Part shown: one piece after another, positions 16,984 to 56,796 of the stretch
Numbering within the stretch: the first letter of the stretch is position 1
How the letters are laid out: every line of letters begins with the position of its first letter
Source: Pleurostoma richardsiae
Taxonomy: Eukaryota > Ascomycota > Sordariomycetes > Calosphaeriales > Pleurostomataceae
Reading direction: 5' to 3'
DNA length: 64,000 bases
NCBI GenBank assembly: GCA_030052745.1
Contig: JANBVO010000075.1
Coordinates: 22,704 to 86,703 of the forward strand
The notes under the pieces: generated by a model
What the model was told of the DNA's origin: nothing
What the model saw: only the letters and a program-made list of their open reading frames with translations
Database searches by the model: none
Made by a program: the position numbers and the translations under genes

Positions 16984-19453
16984 ATGCGCGGCCCCGACAT
17001 TTCATGGACGGCGCTCCTGCCGCAGATACTGCCATCATTTCTCCAAGGGTCCGTTCCTGAGTCTCGCTCCGTGCAGGTCGACTTGACGCACCACTTCAAC
17101 CACAAGGCTTTCGGATCTTACCCTGGCGAGACTGCCTTCGGCCTGCAGAACAGGTCTTATCCCGTACTCGACTCTCTTGCCCCCAATGGAATATACACCT
17201 CACGGCGAACGGGAATCAAATACTCGTTCCCGGGTTATTCGGGGGTGGGCGTCCCCGACAACGTGATTTGCAACAACCAGACAATTCGCGTGCCACGACG
17301 ACAGGGAGGAGGAACCGCCTTCTCCGTCTCGATGCTGCTGGCCAATGACCTGCAGGACACAACAATCTCGCGCAACGTCACGTACGTGTACGCTGACGAC
17401 ACAACCAGCCAGGCGGAGCTGCGTGCTATGCCCTTCTCAACGTACTTGCTGCTTGCACATGGCGAAATTGTTAGCAAGTTCACCTGGACGGCGTCCGGGC
17501 GAGATGGGAACGCCTCGCAGATCTTCGAATTTACTGGAGCCGTGGACCCGAACAGAGACTTGGACGCCGTGGTATTGCCCGATGCAGCGGACGAAGAGCA
17601 AGGGCAGATTCACGTGTTCGCGTTGTCATTGTGGCGGGGTGAGCCTGGCCTAGGCTCCGGGGGACCGATAGTAGAGGTGCAGGCCGTGAGGCCGACGCAA
17701 AAGTGGACTGAGAACGGTAATCAGGTGGTTGAGGTGACCGTAAACAATGTTGGGAAGAGGTGCCTTGCCGGCCGCGGGCTGAGAGTTTCTCTTGAGGGAT
17801 ACGGCGTGGCAACTGCGGAATACGGCAAGATCACACGCTTGTGTCCCGGTGACCAGAAGAGGGTTGACGTCGGCGTAGTTGGGCGCGGAAGTGGAACTCT
17901 GACGGTCACTCTGGACAGCGAACTAGAGACTCGCGAAGCTGAGTTTTCAGACGTCACAATCGGTTTTGAGACCTTCAGCGAGGATCTAGACAGCCTGTCT
18001 AAGCATGAGACTCCACAGTGGTTTGACGACGCCAAGTACGGCATTTTCGTTCATTGGGGCCCATATGCTGTTCCTGGGTGGGGAGGGCCGCCTGAAAATG
18101 AGACATACGCTGAGTGGTTTTGGTAAGTAGACACCCCGACGGAGGACAATATGGACGAAACATGCGCGTCGGTATTAACAATTTTGAAGGTGGTACACTA
18201 CATATCACGATGGGGGCCGCGGTGACGTCGCGGACAGTTACGGCTATCGACTCAGAACTTTTGGACCGGAGTGGAACTATGACGACTCCTTTACTGACTT
18301 CACGGGAGAGTTCTGGGACCCGAAGGCTTGGGTCGATCTATTCGCTGATGCCGGTGCCAAGTACTTCGTCATGACCACGAAACATCACGACGGTTTCGCA
18401 TTGTTCGACACGGGTAGAACTACCAACCGTTCCTCCCTGCACTACGGGCCAAAGCGGGACATTATCAAAGATCTGTTCGATGCGGCGGCTAGATACCAGC
18501 CACAGCTAAAGCGTGGGACATACTTCTCGCTACCAGAATGGTTTAACCCCGATATGTCACCGTACGCCTTTACCCAGACGGACCTCCCAAACTCAGTGTC
18601 CTGGCTAGGTGTCGAGGCCAAGAACCCGTACACTGGCAGGGCAGAGACCTATACGGGACGTACACCGATCAATGACTTCATTACAGACCTGATGGTCCCA
18701 CAGATGGAGGCTCTCGCGTATGGCTATAACACAGATATCATGTGGTGCGACGACGGAGCCGCAAACGGCACACCCGGGTTCGCAGCGAATTGGTGGAATT
18801 GGGCGCGTCTTCACGCAGGCAGACAGGTAACAATGAACAATCGGTGTGGCGTGGTAGAGGCTTCAGATTTCGAGACGCCCGAGTACACGACATATAGCTC
18901 CGCTCAGCGGCGAAAGTGGGAGAGCAATCGCGGCATGGATCCATTCAGCTACGGGTACAATCGTGGAACGCCGGACGAGGCCTACATGAACGCCAGAACA
19001 ATAATCTTCTCCCTCGTAGATATGGTAGCGAAGAACGGAAACTTCCTGCTGGATGTTGGGCCGCGGGCGGACGGGACGGTGCCACAGGTCATGCAGGACA
19101 ACCTCCGAGAGGCTGGACGGTGGATCCAGAAGCATGGCGAGGCCATCTTCAACACGACCTACTGGTTCGTGCAGACACAGATTACAGAGCCTTCTGTAAG
19201 ATTCACTCAAACGGACGATGCATTTTACATCCTGTTTCTGGAGAAGCCCGTCGCGGTACGCGGGACAGTACTTGTCGACGCGCCGATCCCTATCATTGAT
19301 GGAGATGAGCTGAGCCTCCTAGGGGTTCCAGGCGTAGGAATGCTCAAATGGGCGAAGCAGGGCCCCGAGGAAGCGCTCGTCATCGAGGTCCCTGCGGACG
19401 CGCTCGATCGTGGGGAATTCTGCTGGGTGTTCAAGGTGAAATATGCCACTTGA
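16984..19453 (+). CDS. alpha-L-fucosidase, GH29 family
   Basis: Exons 16984-18122 and 18190-19453, giving 800 residues. GH29 enzymes remove terminal L-fucose with retention through an aspartate nucleophile. Seen: an N-terminal beta-rich region of about 330 residues including a CARDB-like stretch (VVEVTVNNVGKR), then the GH29 barrel: HETPQWFDDAKYGIFVHWGPYAVPGW, AEWFWWY across the intron, MTTKHHDGFALF, and NTDIMWCDDG near residue 566 with the likely nucleophile. LLDVGPRADGTVPQ closes the barrel region. Removing the 67-nt intron (GTAAGT donor) exactly restores the WFWWYTTYHDGG segment. The protein is probably secreted for plant or fungal glycan breakdown, but the N-terminus at the chosen ATG gives only a weak hydrophobic segment (ALLPQILPSFL), so the true start may be in an unseen upstream exon. 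Confidence 0.9.
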
Positions 19454-37400: not shown

Positions 37401-37607
37401 GGTAACAGAAGGCGAGAGCTCGGTCTCGGTCTATCTAAGTCCATGGAAGCGTACCGAAACTCGTCGGCAGCTGCATGCGACATTCCACTTTCACCCCAAG
37501 CCTGGACAGTATAAGAACCGGGTGAGACCGGTATGGCTGTCTGGAGAGGTACATTCTTTCAATCCCAAGGCTTTCTCCATGTACTGAATCGCCCGACTTT
37601 GAGAAAG
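34459..37607. other. long intergenic stretch (3.1 kb)
   Basis: No gene is supported. Frames such as 35715-35972 and 36948-37190 are short and without family signal. The region holds the promoter of the peptide transporter at its left end and of the GH43 gene at its right end. Confidence 0.45.
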
Positions 37608-38921
37608 ATGTTATCATACTTTCTCCTACTCTTGGCAGGTTCCTCTTCTATGCTGGCTGCGGCAAAGGATGGAGTGCCAATCCGATTGCTCAGTACACGA
37701 GATACGCCTCCAGGAAATGCGAGTTTGATTGCCGCAGTAACTCTGTCTGATCCCTCCGTCCTAAAAGTCGATCCAATCATCGACGCGAACCTGTCATCGG
37801 TAGTGTTCCCCGTCTTCCCAGGGACGGACCTCACCAAACTTGCCCCTGTATTTTCTACTACAAAAGGCGTCGTTGCCTCCCCGGCACCAGGTACTGCGGT
37901 CGATCTCAGTCGTCCCGTTGAGTATGTACTAAGCTACCACGGCCAAATCACGGCAACTTGGACAGTGCGTGGGGTGGAAATGCGCAGCCCTGTTCTCCCC
38001 GGATATTATGCAGATCCAAACATCGCAGTCTACGGCGGGTTATACTACATCTACGCCACAACAGACGGTTTTGCAAGCTGGGGTGGTAATGTCTTCTATG
38101 TCTGGAAGTCCCGGGATCTCGTTACTTGGACTCGCAGCTCGCAGCCAATACTTATCCTTGCCGGGACCAATGGCACAGTTCCATGGGCAGACGGCAACGC
38201 ATGGGCACCTACGATCACCCATCGCAACGAGAGGTACTACTTCTATTTCAGTGGGGACAACCCGACTTACCAGCGCAAGACGATCGGCGCGGCGGTGTCT
38301 GTTTCCCCCGAAGGGCCGTTTAACGCCGAGCCAGGCGCGATGATCCTGAATAACGAAGATCTTACAACTAACCAGGCCATTGATCCGGTGGCATTCAGAG
38401 ATCCCGTGAGTGGGAAGTACTATTTGTTCTGGGGTAATGGCTCTCCTCTCATGGTGGAACTAAGCGACGACATGGTGTCGATCAACAAGAGCACGCTTCG
38501 AGCCGTCGAGGGATTGACAGACTTCCGTGAGGGAACATTCATCAACTACCGCAAGGGGCTGTACCACATCACATACTCTATCGATGACACGGGCTCAGAA
38601 AACTATCGCGTCGGCTATGCGACATCTCGTAAGATCGAAGGGCCCTACACGTACCAGGGCATCATTCTCCAGAAAGATCCCTCGCAGGGCATCCTTGCTA
38701 CGGGTCACAACTCCATCATCAAGATTCCTGGAACTGATAAGTGGTATATCGCTTATCATCGGTTTCACATCCCAGGCGGTAATGGCACCCATCGAGAAAC
38801 GACCATTGATCGTGTGGAATTTGACCCAGTCACGGGGTTGATGCGCCCTGTCATCCCAACGCTTTCAAGCGTAGATGCAGAGACTGTTCCGGCCTGGCCT
38901 GAACGGGTACAGCATTATTAG
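37608..38921 (+). CDS. secreted GH43 glycosidase with N-terminal Ig-like domain
   Basis: A single exon of 437 residues from ATG 37608. GH43 enzymes are inverting arabinofuranosidases or xylosidases. Seen: a signal peptide (MLSYFLLLLAGSSSMLAAA); residues about 40-125 with FPVFPGTDLTKLAPVFSTT and GTAVDLSRPVEYVL, which resembles the Ig-like DUF5018-type carbohydrate-associated domain common in Bacteroidetes; then the five-bladed propeller with YYADPN (general base Asp136), AIDPVAFRD (pKa-modulating Asp) and FREGTFI (acid Glu). HNSIIKIPGTDKWYIAYHRFH is characteristic of the subfamily near the C-terminus. Another in-frame ATG lies 75 bases upstream, but it would put the signal peptide inside the protein. 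The lack of introns contrasts with most neighbours. Substrate linkage is undetermined. Confidence 0.9.
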   Translation: MLSYFLLLLAGSSSMLAAAKDGVPIRLLSTRDTPPGNASLIAAVTLSDPSVLKVDPIIDANLSSVVFPVFPGTDLTKLAPVFSTTKGVVASPAPGTAVDLSRPVEYVLSYHGQITATWTVRGVEMRSPVLPGYYADPNIAVYGGLYYIYATTDGFASWGGNVFYVWKSRDLVTWTRSSQPILILAGTNGTVPWADGNAWAPTITHRNERYYFYFSGDNPTYQRKTIGAAVSVSPEGPFNAEPGAMILNNEDLTTNQAIDPVAFRDPVSGKYYLFWGNGSPLMVELSDDMVSINKSTLRAVEGLTDFREGTFINYRKGLYHITYSIDDTGSENYRVGYATSRKIEGPYTYQGIILQKDPSQGILATGHNSIIKIPGTDKWYIAYHRFHIPGGNGTHRETTIDRVEFDPVTGLMRPVIPTLSSVDAETVPAWPERVQHY

Positions 38922-39564: not shown

Positions 39565-41734
39565 TCATGCCCACTTCCCCAAAAAACTCATTAGAGCCAT
39601 GCCCGCGACAAGGCTCACGATACCCAACACTGTTTTCAAGGGTTTCGCACTTGTCATCTCTCCGCCTAGCATCCAGTCGTGCGCCAGCATCTCCACAACT
39701 CCAACCCATACCAGAATTCCCGCAGAGAAGGCGTCAAGGGTGCCAATGGCCACTATGGTCGCGGGGTCGTTGCCATTAAAGTTGTAAATGACTCCTATCC
39801 CGATAGCCATGCCAACAGGAGTAACCAGGGCAAATGCAGCAGCAAGTAGAAGCTTTTTGCGCATCGAAATATTTGATGGGACATTCTTTTCCGCCCGAGC
39901 CACCGGACCAGAGGTCGACAGATCTCCGTCCGTTCCTGGGGTAGATGCTGATAAGCCGTATGAACTATTGCGATGGATTTGGCTGACGGGTATCTCAGCG
40001 TCATTTGTCCCCAAAGCGGCAATACGAGTTCCCAGAGCAATTCCCTCAAACATCTGGTGAAAGACGATGACGGCAAAGAGAGTCAGAAAGAAGCTGTCGC
40101 CAGCAACAACGAGTGTCACGCCAATAACTAGATTGTGGTAAGCCAACACCCACTATACATAGAAAAACCTAGATCATCTTACTCATTGAATGAAAGATGA
40201 TGCCAGTTTCCAATACCATGATCTTGTTCGTCCGGGTGGAAGGTGGGAGCTCAGGTTGCCTCCCAGCTTCAATACTGCCTGCCTTCTTTTGGTAATGCCA
40301 CAGCAGAAGCCGATTGCCAGTATACTCGACGAGGAATGATAGGAGAATCCCGGCCATCATCACCGCCGCTGCTGTTCCTTCGAATGCAAGTTCGCCTAGG
40401 CAGTCATTCTCAAACATCAGGTTCGCATGCGTTTGCAACTGTGAGCCTGTCAGATAAGAAGATACAAGCTGCTGTGTGTTGCTTACGTGGACAAAGGCAG
40501 TCGAGATAATGACTCCGGTGCCAAATTGCTTGAGGAGAGAGAACGTAAAGTTCTGTGCTGGAACAAAGAGGGCTAGGAATATTGGACTGAACACGCCTAT
40601 GCTGAGTTAGCAACACTGGAGCTCTTCACTTCATGTCTGAACTGGGTATACCAATAGCACTCGTGGTGAGTATGACGAAGAGGAGTCCGACGCGCAGGGA
40701 GATATTGTAATCTCTGTTCATACGCGCGCATCTTGTTTCGGATTCTTCTGCGTCTGAACCGCCGCCGACACAGTGCCTAGCCTCTGTTAATTCAGCTCCG
40801 AGTGTCCTAGTTTCGTGTAGCAAACTCACTCAACACCGGCATGGAAATGGCAATTTTCTTCCGACGGTTCCTCTGTGTCTTCCGATGCATCGTTCGTAGA
40901 TAGGGTGACTTCAACGTCGTCACCCGTGGGATCGAGGCAGTATCTATCCACAATATGCATTAGAGTGAAATCTAATCTGGACTAGAACGGGAAGCACACG
41001 TGTTAGACCCATGACTGTGGCATCCTGTGAACTCAGGGGGAACATCCGTTGTCGCTGTAACCGTTGTCTGGACGTTGTATTCGGCGGTACCAGCAATGCA
41101 GAACCTGTGCGTTCATTGTCAGGGCGCCATAACATTTACTCGGCGGGTGTGCAGGTACTGACACAGAGGAACCGTGCATATGGCACTCTGATACCGCCGT
41201 TATACCGGTTGTGGTTGGCTCACTTGAAGTGCCGATGGCCGATGCCGAATCACCAGACCCGGATTTACTTTCAGGTAACAGCTGTACTTCGTCCCCAGTA
41301 GACGCGATACACCAGCTACATCAAGTGTCAGTGTACCAAAAGTATATCCAATGTCCGAAGTTACATACGTCTGTGTCCCATGATTATGACAGCTCGTGTA
41401 GGACGAGGGTAGGCCGGTAGTGGTCGTTGCGGTTCCCGAGATTCGAAACTCGGTTGTCCCAACCATGCAGAATCTAAGAAATCAATAATCAACGTCTTCC
41501 AGGCCCCTCCCAGTTTACAGGAACTGAGACGTACTGGACGGTACCATGAAGGTGGCATTCAGAGACCGCAGTCACTCCGGCTTCCAGAGCTGTAGTGGGG
41601 GTGGCTATTGTTTGAGTCACCTGCCGCCGAAGGTGTACGCTTTGAGCAGACCAGGCAGTACCGAGTTGGGTACAGAAGGAAAAGAAAACAAGGAACGCCT
41701 GATTGCGCGTGGTCATGTATTGGCTTCTTGCCAT
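39565..41734 (-). CDS. ZIP zinc transporter with repeated Cys/His ectodomain
   Basis: Nine exons, 41734-41535, 41473-41369, 41315-41163, 41104-41000, 40943-40830, 40776-40652, 40596-40487, 40438-40183 and 40127-39565, giving 576 residues. ZIP proteins import zinc (or iron) into the cytosol. Seen: a signal peptide (AFLVFFSFCTQLGTAWSA), then about 210 residues with five motifs of the form C-H-x-H-[GA]-x3-[FWYH]-C at about residues 60-69, 95-104, 146-155, 181-190 and 219-228. The ZIP core follows: VGLLFVILTTSAIGVFSPI, QFGTGVIISTAFVH, THANLMFENDCL, and FHSMIIGVTLVV with AVIVFHQMFEGIALG, which carry the metal-binding histidines of helices 4 and 5. Each motif is cut by a phase-2 intron in its eighth codon. 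The gene is head-to-head with the GPI-type protein gene, which has the same motif. Expression is probably zinc-repressed, inferred from promoter words. Confidence 0.92.
40826..41559 (-). repeat. five intron-split C-H-x-H-[GA]-x3-[FWYH]-C repeats
   Basis: The repeats are CHLHGTVQFC, CHNHGTQTWC, CHMHGSSVFC, CHSHGSNTYC and CHFHAGVEHC. Introns 41474-41534, 41316-41368, 41105-41162, 40944-40999 and 40777-40829 each split the codon of the eighth motif residue after its second base. This indicates growth by tandem duplication of an exon-plus-intron unit of about 150-210 bp. The motif residues are plausible extracellular zinc ligands. Confidence 0.85.
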
Positions 41735-42029
41735 ATTCGTTGCGTTAGTCTTAGTGTTAAACCCTGTATGCGAAGCTTCGGGAGACGGGCCTGTTTTGCG
41801 TGAAGGCATGCAAGCTTTCGAGAAAATACAATGTCTCTGGAGTGCCAATACAGATAGGCATATAGAACACAGCTGTATTACGGGAACATAATAAGGTAAT
41901 GATCTCAACAATGTTTAAAGGCAAGCTACAGGCCTCCTAGACAGAGTAAGCGGAGTGGTGATGGCGGTAATAGGGTGCATCGAAGGTTCGTGTAGATATT
42001 GATATGAGTCCCAAGAAGCTCCTTTACAG

Positions 42030-42040
42030 GCCCTCAAGGT
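42030..42040 (+). promoter_or_regulatory. ZRE-like word GCCCTCAAGGT
   Basis: Fits the relaxed form RCCYTNAAGGY of the fungal zinc-responsive element bound by Zap1/ZafA-type regulators. It differs from ACCTTNAAGGT at positions 1 and 4. It lies 296 bp upstream of the ZIP start codon. Confidence 0.4.
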
Positions 42041-42371
42041 GCTCGGATGTATGGGACAAATTGACGAGGTGGACTTGGCGAACCTCGCCAAGTGAATGGT
42101 TAGAGCCTGAAAACCAACAACGACAATCACCAGGAACCTAATTCCTTCAAAAAAAAAAAAAATCCCGCTACTAGGAGCCGAAGAGTCTATTTCCGGCTCA
42201 GGTCGAGCAGTTGGAGCCAGATTGCCACTGATCACGGGTGAGGACAATCCCCTTAGCCCGCTTAATATATGGCGATCCGGGAACCCAGCGAGAACTTGTA
42301 CAGCTGAGAACTTTCACCTTCTGAATTTTCCAGTCACACTTTTCTAACTATCCCAAGTCTTGAAGGAGTGA

Positions 42372-42382
42372 ACCTTGATAGT
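42372..42382 (+). promoter_or_regulatory. ZRE-like word ACCTTGATAGT
   Basis: The left half-site ACCTTNA is perfect and the right half has two mismatches. It lies midway between the divergent genes. Confidence 0.25.
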
Positions 42383-42579
42383 CAAGCCAAGCCTGCGATC
42401 CGTAGGTGATCACGTTTTCGCAAGCTGCTGGAAAGGCAAAGCAGATCATTAGGTCCTTGCCGCCGAGACTGCCCAGACATGATAAGTCCTTTGAATTCTT
42501 GTCTTGAACCTTGGCGCTCAACTGCCCAGTCCCTAAACACGCGCACTTATCTAGCACTCCAGTTGTACGGCCTTGGCAC

Positions 42580-42590
42580 ACCATCAAGGT
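42580..42590 (+). promoter_or_regulatory. ZRE-like word ACCATCAAGGT
   Basis: One mismatch (position 4) to the zinc-responsive element ACCTTNAAGGT. It lies 280 bp upstream of the start codon of the GPI-type protein gene. Confidence 0.45.
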
Positions 42591-42869
42591 CCAAAGTCTC
42601 GCGAAGGAAATCCGTGAGCGGTCGGAGATAGAAGGTTCGAGGGATCAGGGCCCAGAGCAAAATCTAAGACACAGAAGATCATAGTAATTTCTTGCTCTAG
42701 CCGGTGAGAGATATATTCACGGGGCTTCCCTATAACAGATCAGCCACTGGTCATAGTCTCTCAGACTCGGCATTCTTAACCATTGTGAAAGTCTGATAGG
42801 TACTTTCGTTTCCTCATTTCAGATCAAACACGCTCGATCGAAAAAGTGCACCGGAATAGCCTCGACAAG

Positions 42870-43479
42870 ATGAGAGCGTCTTCATTCTTGACACTGGCCA
42901 TGGTCTCTCTACCCGCTACCCTCGCCCAGACTCTCCTACCTTCTCCGAGCGAATCCATTGGTTGTGAACCACATGGCGATCATTGGTAGAGATCGTCATT
43001 CTTTATTTGAAAGCTGCTCATATTGACAGTATCTTCACAGGCACTGCGATGGACCGCTCACCACGACATCCGTAGAGATCAGCACGGTATTCTCTATTCC
43101 AGCGGCCACAGCCACAACGGATACTAAGGAGGACGAAGGCCACAGTGGGACTCTCCTACCGAGTCCTACCGAGTCTGTCGGTTGCGAACCTCATGGGGAT
43201 CACTGGCACTGCTCCGCACCGGCCACGAGCTCTACGTTATCTTCGGAGACTGCTAGCCTTGAGCCTAGCCCAGCAGAGTCAGTCGGTTGCGAGCCACATG
43301 GAGATCACTGGCACTGCTCGGGTCTCGCATCCACGTCAACCCTTCTGACAGCTTCCTTGAGCTCGGCAGCTCCGGCAAACGCTACTTCCAGTGTTGTCAC
43401 TGCTGGTGGTGCGCTTCGCAGACACTCGCTGAACACGTGGGCAATCGGGTTGGTTGCGCTTCTGACTATGATTCTGTAG
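42870..43479 (+). CDS. small secreted GPI-type protein with CEPHGDHWHC repeats (zincophore-like)
   Basis: Exons 42870-42985 and 43041-43479 give 184 residues. I recognise no named family. Seen: a signal peptide (SFLTLAMVSLPATLAQ); three near-identical 20-residue units, each a PSPxESxG lead followed by CEPHGDHWHC, at about motif residues 32-41, 87-96 and 122-131; Ser/Thr/Ala-rich linkers likely to be O-glycosylated; and a C-terminal hydrophobic tail (WAIGLVALLTMIL) after a small-residue region, as in GPI-anchored wall proteins. The motif matches the C-x2-H-G-x3-[FWYH]-C unit in the adjacent ZIP ectodomain, and its single 55-nt intron splits the eighth motif codon at phase 2, as in the ZIP gene. 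A role in capturing zinc at the surface and passing it to the transporter is inference. Head-to-head with the ZIP gene. Confidence 0.85.
42963..43317 (+). repeat. three CEPHGDHWHC repeat units
   Basis: Coding repeats at 42963-43047 (split by the intron), 43183-43212 and 43288-43317. All ten motif residues are identical in the three copies, with synonymous differences (for example TGT GAA CCA, TGC GAA CCT, TGC GAG CCA), so the conservation is at protein level. Each offers up to three His and two Cys. Confidence 0.9.
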
Positions 43480-44516: not shown

Positions 44517-45983
44517 ATGAGTCTCTTACTGGCATGGTTATTGCCGGTTTTCCCTTGTTTCCTAAGAATATCGATGCTTGTAGCTGGCACCGCTCTCGAG
44601 AATGATTCAGCAAGAGAGTTTGTCTACGGAGGAGGTCCGACACTTTACGAGTTACACTACGTGATTGTTACGGTCGAAGATACCCGCAGAGCACCAAATC
44701 CGCCGGAACACCTCGTAGAGAGGGCGAGGTTGCTAGACCGCTTGAAGGAAACTAACGGGAAGTCGGACGCTCACCACCCTCGATACCGGTTACTTCAAGC
44801 TCTCCACGGTTTCAGAAACTACAAACAAACCCAGATGGCCGAACTCCATCGTTGGAAAGGGCTTTACAAACACGTCCCTAAGAGGCAGAGACAGGTGAGC
44901 CGGCCAATGTTAAACTGAATCTGATCAAGACAGAGCACAGTTCTTGCTCACTACATTAAGGGAAAGATTCTCGAACGTGAAATACGTTATTCTGAGAAGT
45001 TCGTCACTACCGAGGAGCTCCTTGAGCAGAATGCTGCATTGTGTGAGAACATTGTCCAACATGCGCTCAAATTTTACGAAGTAGAAGAGACGGAGCTGCA
45101 AAATTTCATTCGCGCGGCCGAGAAAAGCAAAATCCCAGTAGAGAGAGTAAGCATCGCTCAAGCTCTCAAGCATGTTGTCAGAGACTGGACGAACATCGGC
45201 GCTGGGGAACGCGAGTCAGGATTCACATGCGTCTTCGACATTTCCAAGAGCTTGCTGTCTGGGACAAACCTGTCAGAAGAAGATATTAAAGTCATCATAC
45301 CAGGTGCAGGTCTCGGGCGCCTAGGGCATGAGCTCACTAGCCTGGGTAAATATACGTCCCGTTACGAAGGCAGTGGCCAAGTTCTGACAAACGAGCGTGC
45401 AGGTTACAAGGTCACGATCAACGAGTGGTCGATGTACATGAATGCCGCATATAGGTTTCTAGAGCATATTCGAGACCCATACTCGCATTTCTTCTACCCG
45501 TTTCTCGATAGTTGGTCGCATCATGCGACTAATGGTGATATGCAGCGCCGAGTGCCTTTCCCAGATTGCAGGGTTGACGCGGCGTCGATTGCCTTGATAG
45601 AGGGCGATTTCACAATGGGGATGAAGGACCACGAGGGTCAGTATGACATGGTCATCACGTATTTCTTTATTGACACTGCCCGCAACCTCATGAATTACCT
45701 AGAAACAATCGATAGGCTCTTGACACCGGGCGGTCACCGGGTTAACTTCGGGCCTTTGCTCTATGGTAGTGCCCCTTTTGTACAGCTAACGCTCGAGGAA
45801 ATTATTCTAGCGACGGAGGCACTGGGATACATCTTTCTCAATATACCTTCCTCTTGCGGTCAGAAGACATTGATGGGACGGCCCGTGAGAGGGAAGGAGG
45901 CTGTTTATGGTTTCAATGATAAGGCACTGGTGAGGAATATTTATATAGCCCAAGCTTGGGCGGCAAGAAAGAACCTACAATAG
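44517..45983 (+). CDS. N2227-like / carnosine N-methyltransferase family protein
   Basis: Exons 44517-44894 and 44934-45983 give 475 residues. The family (CARNMT1, yeast YNL092W) transfers methyl groups from S-adenosylmethionine to histidine-containing dipeptides. Seen: DIKVIIPGAGLGRLGHEL (SAM-binding motif I), INEWSMYMNAAYRFLE, ALIEGDFTMGM, DMVITYFFIDTARNLMNYLE, and LTPGGHRVNFGPLLYG, all in family order. The N-terminal part HRWKGLYKHVPKRQRQ joins to LAHYIKGKILEREI. The join needs a very short intron of 39 nt (GTGAGC to GACAG), so this junction is uncertain. The ATG at 44517 adds a hydrophobic N-terminus (SLLLAWLLPVFPCFL), like a signal anchor, which is unusual for this normally soluble family; a later start may be used. 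Confidence 0.85.
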
Positions 45984-54609: not shown

Positions 54610-56796
54610 ATGCGGGCATCCCCTCACCCGTTTGACCCCCTCACGCCGGAGGAGATCACTCTGGTATGTCCGCAGCATCGGGCCCCGTCCGTTTATACTC
54701 CCTAGGAACACAAATGGGTGTTAATCCGAGCATCTCTTACAGGCTGCCGCTATCGTCCGGCCACTCTTCTCGGACCCAAATCCTATTTTTCGAGTAATTA
54801 CCCTACAAGAGCCGCCAAAGAAGGAGATGATCCCGTTCCTGGAACATGAGCATCGTGGAGAGGTTCCAGGGTCGGTTCCCGCACGCTGCGCTCGTGTCCA
54901 GCTACTCGTTCGGAGTGAAGGAGGGGTAAGCCAGTTTTTTGAGATAAGGGTGAATCTGAGCCAAAGAACGGTCACGGGGGAAGAGCATCTTGAAGGAAAG
55001 CACTCTCACGTTGACCCTACATACATGAAAGAGGTCGAGGCCGCCTGTCTAGCAGATGAACGGGTGCAAGCGGGAATCCGTACGCTCGAGCTGCCTGACG
55101 GCGCGACAGTGTGTGTCGAGCCTTGGACTTATGCGACGGATGGAGAGAATGACATGTCGGAGCGCATCACGATGGTACGCATGAAATTATTACCACATAT
55201 GCGGAGCATGCCAACCACTAACATATCATCATCCTTAAGTGCTACTTCTACATGCGTCTTGTGGGCAACCAAGATGCGAATTACTACGCGTACCCGCTCG
55301 ATCTCTGTGCCGAAGTGTCTGATAAGCTTCAGGTCACCAAGCTCTATCGTCTCCCTTCGACTGCGAACGAGCGTATTCATACGGAGTCGCGACCTTTTGA
55401 TCGCCGCAAGATCCAGAAGGCGTCAGATAGTGAATACCACCCGGGGTTGAGGCCGCCTCCGCGGAATACCACTAAGCCTTACCATGTTGTGCAGCCAGGA
55501 GGCCCGTCGTTTGAGACGCACGGGAATCATGTCGCCTGGGAGAAGTGGAGCTTCCGTGTAGGCTTCAACTACCGGGAAGGCCTCACGCTCCACGACATCT
55601 GTTACGATCATCGCAGTCTGTTCTACCGACTGTCACTATCCGAGATGTTCGTACCGTATGGAGACCCGCGAGCACCGTATCAGCGGAAGGGAGCCTTTGA
55701 TTTGGGCAACGATGGTGCAGGCATCAACGCGAATAACCTGCGCCTCGGATGTGACTGCCTGGGCACGATCAGATACTTCGATGCCTGGCACAACACCGTC
55801 TCTGGCGTGCCTATGAAACTTTTCAACGTAGTCTGCTGCCACGAGCAAGATGACGGAATTCTGTGGAAGCACACAAACTTCCGCACACAGAACGCGGTAG
55901 TAACTCGGTCACGCATCCTTGTACTGCAGACCATCATCACGGTCAGCAACTACGAGTACATATTCGCCTTCCACTTTGGCCAAGACGCCTCCATTCACTT
56001 CGAAGTACGCGCCACTGGCATTGTGTCGACAGTACCAAATAATATCGGAGAGAAGGTGCCATACGGAACCATCGTTGCGCCAGGTGTCCTGGCGCCATAT
56101 CATCAACATCTGTTTAGTCTCCGCATTGACCTGGCCATTGATGGACAGAAAAACTCTCTTATGGTCGAGGAGTCTAGACCGATGCCTATCAATGACCCGG
56201 GCGTCCATAATCCCTATGGCGTGGGATACAGCACCTTCTCGAGCGTGATTGAGGAGGAAGGAGGCTTTGACCTCGACTTTGCGAAGAACCGCACCTTCAA
56301 GTTCGTCAACGAGGAAAAGATCAATCCAATAAGCCTCACCCCGGTGGGCTACAAGCTCGTCCCTTGCTACAGCCAGATGCTGCTAGCCCACCCCGATTCC
56401 TTCCACGCCAGACGATCCGAGTTCGGCCGTCATGCCGTTTGGGTTACACGACACGACGACGAGGAGCTGTTTCCCTCAGGCCGGCACACTATGCAATCGC
56501 TTGGCGGGGAGGGTATTGCATCGGCTATCGAAAAGCACCAGGTCACCGGGGCCGCACGCCGTGTGCGAGGCGAGGATATCGTTGTATGGCATACATTCGG
56601 GTCAACACACAACCCACGGATTGAGGACTGGCCTGTCATGCCAACTGAGAAGATGATCGTCGGCCTCAAGCCAGTTAACTTTTTTGCCAGAAACCCGGCA
56701 CTTGACGTGGCAGTGTCTACGCAAGAGAAGAACAGAAGTGTTCTAGCCCCTAATGAGGGCGAAAATGACGGGCTTGCCTGTTGCCCAAAGTTCTGA
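54610..56796 (+). CDS. copper amine oxidase (topaquinone type)
   Basis: Exons 54610-54663, 54743-55174 and 55240-56796, giving 680 residues. It oxidises primary amines to aldehydes with release of ammonia and hydrogen peroxide. Seen: HPFDPLTPEEITLAAAIVR at the start, RLVGNQDANYYAYPLDL, YHVVQPGGPSFETHGNHVAW, NYREGLTLHDICYD, and YQRKGAFDLGNDGAG with the likely catalytic-base aspartate. The cofactor motif VSNYEYIF carries the tyrosine converted to topaquinone. Copper ligands sit in APYHQHLFSLRID (HxH) and WHTFGSTHNPRIEDWPVMP. No signal peptide is present and the C-terminus is not an evident SKL-type signal, so the location is cytosolic or peroxisomal by another route. It converges on a P450 and lies near an agmatinase, whose product putrescine is a plausible substrate; this is inference. 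Confidence 0.95.

Follow-up and report, generated by a model that had tools for sequence, protein, structure and literature searches.

The protein zincophores so far known from fungi belong largely to a single family, Pra1/Aspf2, and repeated losses have removed it from many fungi (PMC3386192). In the closest described systems, Pra1/Zrt1 (Zrt101) of Candida albicans and Aspf2/ZrfC of Aspergillus fumigatus, a secreted zinc binder and a ZIP transporter are placed on one divergent promoter that is under zinc and pH control (PMC12663325, PMC3386192, PMC9780748, PMC7711662), and PRA1/ZRT1 orthologues are reported to be syntenic in every Aspergillus species that had been sequenced by 2012 (PMC3386192). 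We analyzed a locus of Pleurostoma richardsiae at positions 39565-43479 of a 64,000-nucleotide (nt) stretch of contig JANBVO010000075.1 (hereafter the window), whose short introns and genes point to a filamentous ascomycete. It contains a ZIP transporter gene and, head to head with it, a gene for a small signal-peptide protein of the glycosylphosphatidylinositol (GPI) type, here called the wall protein. Both proteins carry short Cys/His units, or clasps. The two genes likely form a co-regulated pair for zinc acquisition at the cell surface, where a tethered peptide with three units would take the place of Pra1/Aspf2; zinc binding, induction and relay are predicted. A previous sequence-only reading of this DNA had proposed zinc capture with the Candida and Aspergillus pairs as divergent precedents, and the papers cited above indeed describe both in this way.

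The zinc chemistry of such clasps has been studied with peptides. A 20-residue zinc-binding peptide of C. albicans Zrt1 contains the sequence CHFHAGVEHC and is reported to hold zinc more stably than the Pra1 site, permitting transfer (PMC8773511, PMC9780748). At the C-terminus of Aspf2, which contains CHTHEGGQLHC, Zn(II) is coordinated by two Cys thiolates and two His imidazoles, and at its Pra1 counterpart four imidazoles bind zinc (PMC9780748). Clasps of this type are thus zinc binders with a variable ligand set, which need not consist of the four Cys/His residues of one unit. On the transporter side, the N-terminus of ZrfC, with four putative zinc motifs, is credited for the importance of ZrfC in A. 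fumigatus virulence (PMC4343018).

Cys/His units of the ZIP transporter and the wall protein

The locus is bounded at both ends by the stop codons of the two genes, which are divergently oriented with 1135 base pairs (bp) between their start codons, in agreement with the head-to-head arrangement read from the sequence. The ZIP gene (39565..41734, reverse strand) has nine exons in the spliced model (41734-41535, 41473-41369, 41315-41163, 41104-41000, 40943-40830, 40776-40652, 40596-40487, 40438-40183 and 40127-39565), with GT..AG at every junction, and encodes 576 amino acids (aa). Its start is ambiguous, a second in-frame ATG (Met7) being equally possible. The protein matches the Pfam family Zip (PF02535) with an E-value of 4e-35 and 122 bits, above the cut-off of 35.1, and it contains FHSMIIG and HQMFEG, which we take to be the metal-site signatures of ZIP transmembrane segments 4 and 5. 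A PDB search with the ZIP protein gave no match. The hydropathy scan returned nine partly overlapping segments rather than a clean eight, none of them at an N-terminal signal. All five Cys/His units, CHFHAGVEHC included, precede the first membrane segment and thus lie on a long N-terminal arm, which would face the outside of the cell if the topology follows that of ZrfC. From its sequence, the transporter belongs to the ZIPs and carries an arm resembling that of ZrfC/CaZrt1. A His-rich loop is common in ZIPs. Here, residues 346-376 (approximately), between two hydrophobic segments, contain one histidine only, and the histidines are found in the N-terminal arm instead.

The wall protein gene (42870..43479, forward strand) has two exons (42870-42985 and 43041-43479) and encodes 184 aa. 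The protein has hydrophobic ends (aa 3-20 and 168-184), weaker hydrophobic segments at aa 50-63, and 41% Ser/Thr/Pro between aa 21 and 150. On hydropathy and composition, it is predicted to have a GPI-anchored layout with an N-terminal signal, a Ser/Thr-rich body and a hydrophobic C-terminal tail. It matched nothing in Pfam (at cut-off), NCBIfam or the PDB. A Pra1-like/HRxxH metalloprotease domain is absent from its Pfam matches up to an E-value of 10 (the HMMER filters drop most matches above 0.1), and reading through the 184 aa revealed no HRxxH either. The earlier statement that the small protein lacks a Pra1-like fold thus stands, with neither this nor any other Pfam domain at cut-off. Two matches below their cut-offs were rejected, specifically Strep_his_triad (E 0.22, 11.9 bits versus a cut-off of 27) and Thyroglobulin_1 (E 0.12). 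In the open-licence literature searched, we found no publication on the small wall protein.

The five ZIP units follow the pattern C-H-x-H-[GA]-x3-[FWYH]-C. These are CHLHGTVQFC (aa 60; 41467..41557), CHNHGTQTWC (aa 95; 41309..41391), CHMHGSSVFC (aa 146; 41098..41185), CHSHGSNTYC (aa 181; 40937..41022) and CHFHAGVEHC (aa 219; 40770..40852), all on the reverse strand. The wall protein contains CEPHGDHWHC three times on the forward strand, at aa 32 (42963..43047), aa 87 (43183..43212) and aa 122 (43288..43317). Six of the eight units are formed only by splicing; without it, the intronless wall units 2 and 3 are the only complete ones in any of the six frames of the window. Within ZIP residues 30-235, all ten cysteines and 11 of the 12 histidines fall inside units, as do all six cysteines of the wall protein. 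Shuffling each protein 20,000 times gave on average 0.0003 units in the 240 N-terminal residues of the ZIP protein and 0.0 in the wall protein, and no shuffle reached five or three, respectively. Spliced models and shuffles therefore bear out the five ectodomain motifs and the three CEPHGDHWHC motifs of the divergent neighbor that had been noticed from the letters.

The wall units differ among themselves by three to four synonymous codons and no nonsynonymous ones. In their flanks, nonsynonymous differences amount to two to three in the ten codons upstream and five to eight in the ten codons downstream. Since the amino acids are unchanged in the unit and changed in its flanks, the wall unit looks held by selection. 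The two sets of units had been taken to share one motif, of which the spacing holds and the identity does not, as there are two unit types that match at four of ten positions. The matched positions are C1, H4, G5 and C10 for ZIP units 1-4 and C1, H4, H9 and C10 for ZIP unit 5. The candidate ligands also differ, with H2 in the ZIP units versus E2 together with H7 and H9 in the wall units, whose His positions are constant across the three repeats. Because the possible ligand sets differ, the description ‘same metal-binding unit’ was too strong.

The common promoter and the flanking genes

Both genes share a promoter of 1135 bp (41735..42869) between their start codons. In A. fumigatus, the zinc regulator ZafA has the consensus DYYVYCARGGTVYYY, of which a CARGGT core is required for binding (PMC6070888). 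Candidate sites within 1200 bp of a start codon were scored against this consensus. The intergenic stretch contains four CAAGGT and one CAGGGT; for CAAGGT, 0.6 are expected (P 0.003). Three sites match at least 13 of the 15 consensus positions, versus an expectation of 0.22 under a first-order Markov model (P 0.001) or 0.28 from the density in the window. The best candidate zinc-response motif (42030..42044, forward strand) agrees at all 15 positions, and two further candidates (42368..42382, reverse strand, and 42580..42594, forward strand) agree at 13. In a weaker candidate with 11 of 15 positions (42504..42518, reverse strand), the CAAGGT core overlaps a PacC-type GCCAAG. The yeast Zap1 palindrome, ACCTTNAAGGT, was not found anywhere in the window.

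The promoter also contains five GCCAAG hexamers (42074..42577; starts at 42074, 42087, 42386, 42510 and 42572) of the PacC-type motif, GCCARG. Five GCCARG correspond to a P of 0.006, and 5.6% of equal windows hold as many. A P of 0.0002 for GCCAAG was not counted, as this hexamer had been singled out of GCCARG after the counts were seen.

In A. fumigatus, ZafA is described as regulating both genes of a divergent pair together when they lie within less than 1200 bp of each other, and mutation of three cores in the 884-bp divergent aspf2-zrfC promoter lowered the two reporters 523- and 611-fold (PMC6070888). For zrfC, PacC is described as a negative regulator (PMC7711662). The zinc-capture reading thus finds support in a promoter dense in the zinc-response motif and in the published zinc binding of the Zrt1 peptide with CHFHAGVEHC; its claim of one identical unit does not hold.

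Downstream of the wall protein gene (45039-45983, forward strand), an open reading frame matches carnosine N-methyltransferase (CARME, E 4e-47), whose substrate is a histidine dipeptide able to bind metal. Further open reading frames of the window match a GH43 hydrolase (37533-38921), a copper amine oxidase (55252-56796), an alpha-L-fucosidase (16984-18126) and a P450 (57357-58874).

Intron position and a bacterial parallel

Introns were enumerated as GT-AG stretches of 38-159 nt whose removal connects the first codon of a unit with the following exon, keeping the frame of the model and creating no stop. In all five ZIP units and in wall unit 1, the modelled intron lies after the second base of codon 8 (phase 2) of the ten. 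This place is forced in four of the six, where a single GT-AG solution exists: ZIP unit 1 (intron 41534-41474), ZIP unit 2 (41368-41316), ZIP unit 3 (41162-41105) and wall unit 1 (42986-43040). For ZIP unit 4 (40999-40944), one of three candidates keeps the unit. For ZIP unit 5 (40829-40777), three of four candidates keep a unit of the form C-H-x-H-A-x3-H-C, specifically CHFHAGVEHC, CHFHAEARHC and CHFHAGARHC, of which the first was chosen for having the best donor (GTGAGT) and for its identity to the Candida peptide.

ZIP exons 2-5 (105, 153, 105 and 114 nt) are multiples of three and flanked by phase-2 introns, and exons 1-2 and 3-4 look like mutual copies (AVSECHLHG/AVSECHMHG; a 26-nt direct repeat with 77% identity). 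The wall protein has a single intron, which falls at the ZIP intron place, a coincidence that random placement gives in about 3 of 551 cases (about 0.5%). A shared preferred insertion sequence fails as an explanation because the junction codons differ. Compared as a whole, ectodomain and wall protein score 87 versus a shuffle mean of 44 (P 0.002). The intron position is moderate evidence and suggests that the units of both proteins derive from one exon junction.

Two inverted matches were also seen. Among those listed that pair an exon of one gene with an exon of the other, the longest (41044-41066 / 43100-43122; 23 nt, 83%) is in frame and encodes TATTD in both. The ZIP gene also contains a perfect 16-nt inverted repeat (40864-40879 / 41160-41175), and none as long occurred in 300 simulated sequences. 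In the pre-mRNA, the 5' splice site of intron 3 falls within one arm, and exon 5 contains the second, so that the repeat could hide the splice site.

The wall unit has a parallel in bacteria. Scanning the prokaryote genome contigs of 84,980 species for C..HGDHWHC yielded two places, of which one is in frame, namely CDPHGDHWHC in a ZnuD-like TonB receptor of Pseudomonas flexibilis (L001). The other (L002), where only 25 residues can be read from stop to stop, was dropped. As about 0.5 chance matches are expected in these contigs at equal base use, the count is not above chance, and it is the location of the in-frame match that counts. In the viral contigs, neither the C..HGDHWHC nor the CHFHAGVEHC DNA pattern was matched. 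The best solved relative of the Pseudomonas protein is ZnuD (4rdr, E 8e-99), which is also its best NCBIfam model (572 bits, below the cut-off of 950 of this exception-level model). In the alignment to 4rdr, the unit is located where loop 3 of ZnuD starts, a loop described as metal-sensing on the basis of crystal structures (PMC4557270).

A looser pattern gave five matches in 398 genomes of the same bacterial family, four of them ZnuD-like; the fifth (L006), an unrelated 97-residue reading, was dropped. A protein search of 148 genomes gave a ZnuD-like match in 77. We read the loci of 50 of these 77 genomes, specifically the 30 best (L008-L037) and 20 hand-picked from the rest, and located the loop in 44; the other six, all from a clade near 36% identity, gave no loop by the anchor and are uncounted. 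The Cys pair is present in all 44 loops, and the form C..HG(x2-3)WHC in 23 (e.g., CHTHGSDWHC, CHTHGTQWHC). Another 16 loops lack this HG and read C(x5-8)WHC, Asp being frequent at position 4, and five have other spacings or endings. Some ZnuD-like loops (L047, L049, L051) carry longer clasps, CHTHGHGSTLHWHC or CHTHGHGAKLSWHC, which indicates that the spacer between the clasp halves is free in length.

The Pseudomonas unit matches the wall unit at nine of ten letters, and the unit of another ZnuD-like locus (L042) matches ZIP unit 2 at seven of ten. ZnuD-like receptors and the fungal proteins thus have a comparable ten-residue clasp (CDPHGDHWHC, CHTHGTQWHC in the bacteria), located at the start of loop 3 in the former. 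Unlike the fungal proteins, ZnuD is a bacterial outer-membrane barrel with one clasp per protein in the loops read. The likeness of fungal and bacterial clasps is presumably due to convergence, and by analogy the ZnuD-like clasps support a zinc role for the fungal unit.

Proposed zinc capture, related systems and alternative explanations

The zinc-acquisition pair would operate as follows. Under zinc shortage, an activator of the ZafA/Zap1 type would bind the intergenic CAAGGT cores and switch on both genes. The wall protein would be secreted and tethered to membrane or wall by its GPI tail, displaying three CEPHGDHWHC clasps on flexible Ser/Thr/Pro-rich stalks, while the ZIP transporter would extend five related clasps outward. 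As fungal peptides and the bacterial parallel indicate, these clasps may bind zinc via Cys/His, with one ion per clasp or one shared by neighbors. The wall protein would gather surface zinc, an affinity gradient would lead it to the ZIP arm, and the unit nearest the membrane, CHFHAGVEHC, would hand it to the pore for import. The two cysteines of a unit may be disulfide-linked outside the cell; with an oxidised Cys pair, the histidine triad could remain a zinc site, perhaps one of lower affinity, and this would favor hand-over to the transporter. The clasps of both proteins would stem from one ancestral exon junction, probably duplicated from the ZIP ectodomain.

CHFHAGVEHC is common to Zrt1 and to the ZIP transporter described here, whose arm with five clasps differs from both the Pra1/Zrt1 and the Aspf2/ZrfC systems. 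The secreted partner of the Pra1/Aspf2 type has a C-terminal CHTHxxGxxHC clasp. The wall protein, in turn, has no HRxxH domain of metalloprotease origin according to Pfam, is apparently tethered rather than free and consists of little beyond three clasps. Because the HRxxH domain is absent, it is not a member of Pra1/Aspf2. Its gene is placed as a Pra1/Aspf2 gene would be, divergent from a ZIP gene and on a common promoter with candidate zinc-response sites, and judged by position, promoter and unit, the predicted zinc binder would work like Pra1/Aspf2.

Another zinc-regulated gene, gzbA of A. fumigatus (AFUA_8G02450), is 85-fold up under zinc limitation and 275-fold lower without ZafA (PMC6070888, Table 2). 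Together with its neighbor AFUA_8G02460 it also forms a divergent, ZafA-induced pair, and, compared by description only, gzbA may be a relative of the wall protein. Unlike here, genes of this type are called of unknown function and no ZIP is named beside gzbA in the sections consulted (PMC6070888). A functional analogy is offered by PhtD of streptococci, where a surface protein binds zinc with repeated HxxHxH motifs and transfers the metal to AdcAII, the extracellular part of a transporter (PMC3842936). The HGDHWH of the wall unit fits HxxHxH, but the Cys frame lies outside this motif and the transporter is a different one.

Several observations weigh against zinc capture by related clasps. 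The NCBIfam model TIGR00820 scores 158.9 bits with the ZIP protein, under its cut-off of 231. Among equal-sized windows along the 64 kb, 2.1% reach the promoter's count of CAAGGT and 2.8% its count of CARGGT. Each ZIP unit is identical to the wall unit at only four positions, and ZIP units 1-4 have no H9. The Zrt1 peptide is reported to bind zinc by three His and one Cys, one His being outside the ten-residue unit (PMC9780748), and the sequence after ZIP unit 5 has no counterpart of this residue. What is called the core zincophore domain of Pra1 is HRxxH plus a further His that completes the triad, not the clasp, which is not resolved in the structure and is missing in some ascomycetes (PMC12663325). 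The form C..HG(x2-3)WHC is absent from 21 of the 44 bacterial loops. As to common origin, the intron place of ZIP unit 5 is one of three unit-keeping options, and the test of intron coincidence is post hoc and made on the single intron of the wall protein. Once the units are masked, the linkers of both proteins have no protein similarity (P 0.44), and their best 21-nt DNA match is weak (P 0.025). Since this masked comparison leaves nothing, it is the intron place by itself that argues for common descent. The possible disulfide, mentioned above, belongs here as well.

If the clasps are zinc sites, the wall protein could still be a surface sponge or buffer that protects or stores metal without hand-over, the two genes sharing nothing but a promoter. 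A shared promoter is by itself enough to explain the gene arrangement, storage suits three identical tethered sites, and transfer from the wall protein is itself a matter of inference. We consider this unlikely, given that sites of the zinc-starvation (ZafA) type have the wrong sign for detoxification and that the Pra1/Zrt1 precedent points to transfer (PMC3386192, PMC9780748). The zinc reading itself would be wrong if the units are disulfide-closed structural or adhesive loops, or sites for copper or nickel. Extracellular Cys pairs often oxidise. In addition, the C-terminal peptide of Aspf2 also binds Ni(II) in an analogous, weaker mode (PMC9780748). We regard such loops or other metal sites as quite improbable next door to a ZIP transporter, with a comparable unit in the loop of bacterial ZnuD-like receptors and with three wall repeats that keep the same His positions, the more so as a disulfide could leave the His triad free for zinc.

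The resemblance of the two unit sets might also be convergence on a short zinc clasp with a coincidental intron place, which is compatible with zinc capture. ZnuD-like proteins have a comparable unit without common descent, so convergence is plainly possible; the linkers are unrelated at the protein level and there is only one wall-protein intron to compare. What speaks for descent is the identical codon and phase in six intron models, four of them forced, together with the low chance of such a coincidence (about 0.5%) and the differing junction codons. Convergence is a serious possibility, which we nevertheless place short of an even chance. Equally tentative is a fuller version of descent, in which the ZIP itself gave rise to its zincophore. 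A junction between ectodomain exons would have been copied with its phase-2 intron across the promoter into a tethered protein, where the clasp then multiplied and its ligands changed from C-H-H-C to a Cys-framed histidine triad. The ZIP, the wall protein and the bacterial ZnuD loop would then have a single portable extracellular zinc clasp in common, approximately C-[HED]-x-H-G-x2-3-[WFYH]-[HFWY]-C, which descent explains in one case and convergence, in ZnuD, in the other.

New here are the shared intron place, the zinc-response motifs in the common promoter and the bacterial ZnuD-like units. A minimal tethered clasp partner would suggest how zinc loci can function without Pra1/Aspf2, and the wall unit is a short peptide that allows direct measurement of zinc affinity and transfer. 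The clasp motif could help to recognise unannotated zinc-uptake proteins, and its recurrence in bacterial ZnuD suggests a general design for extracellular zinc capture.

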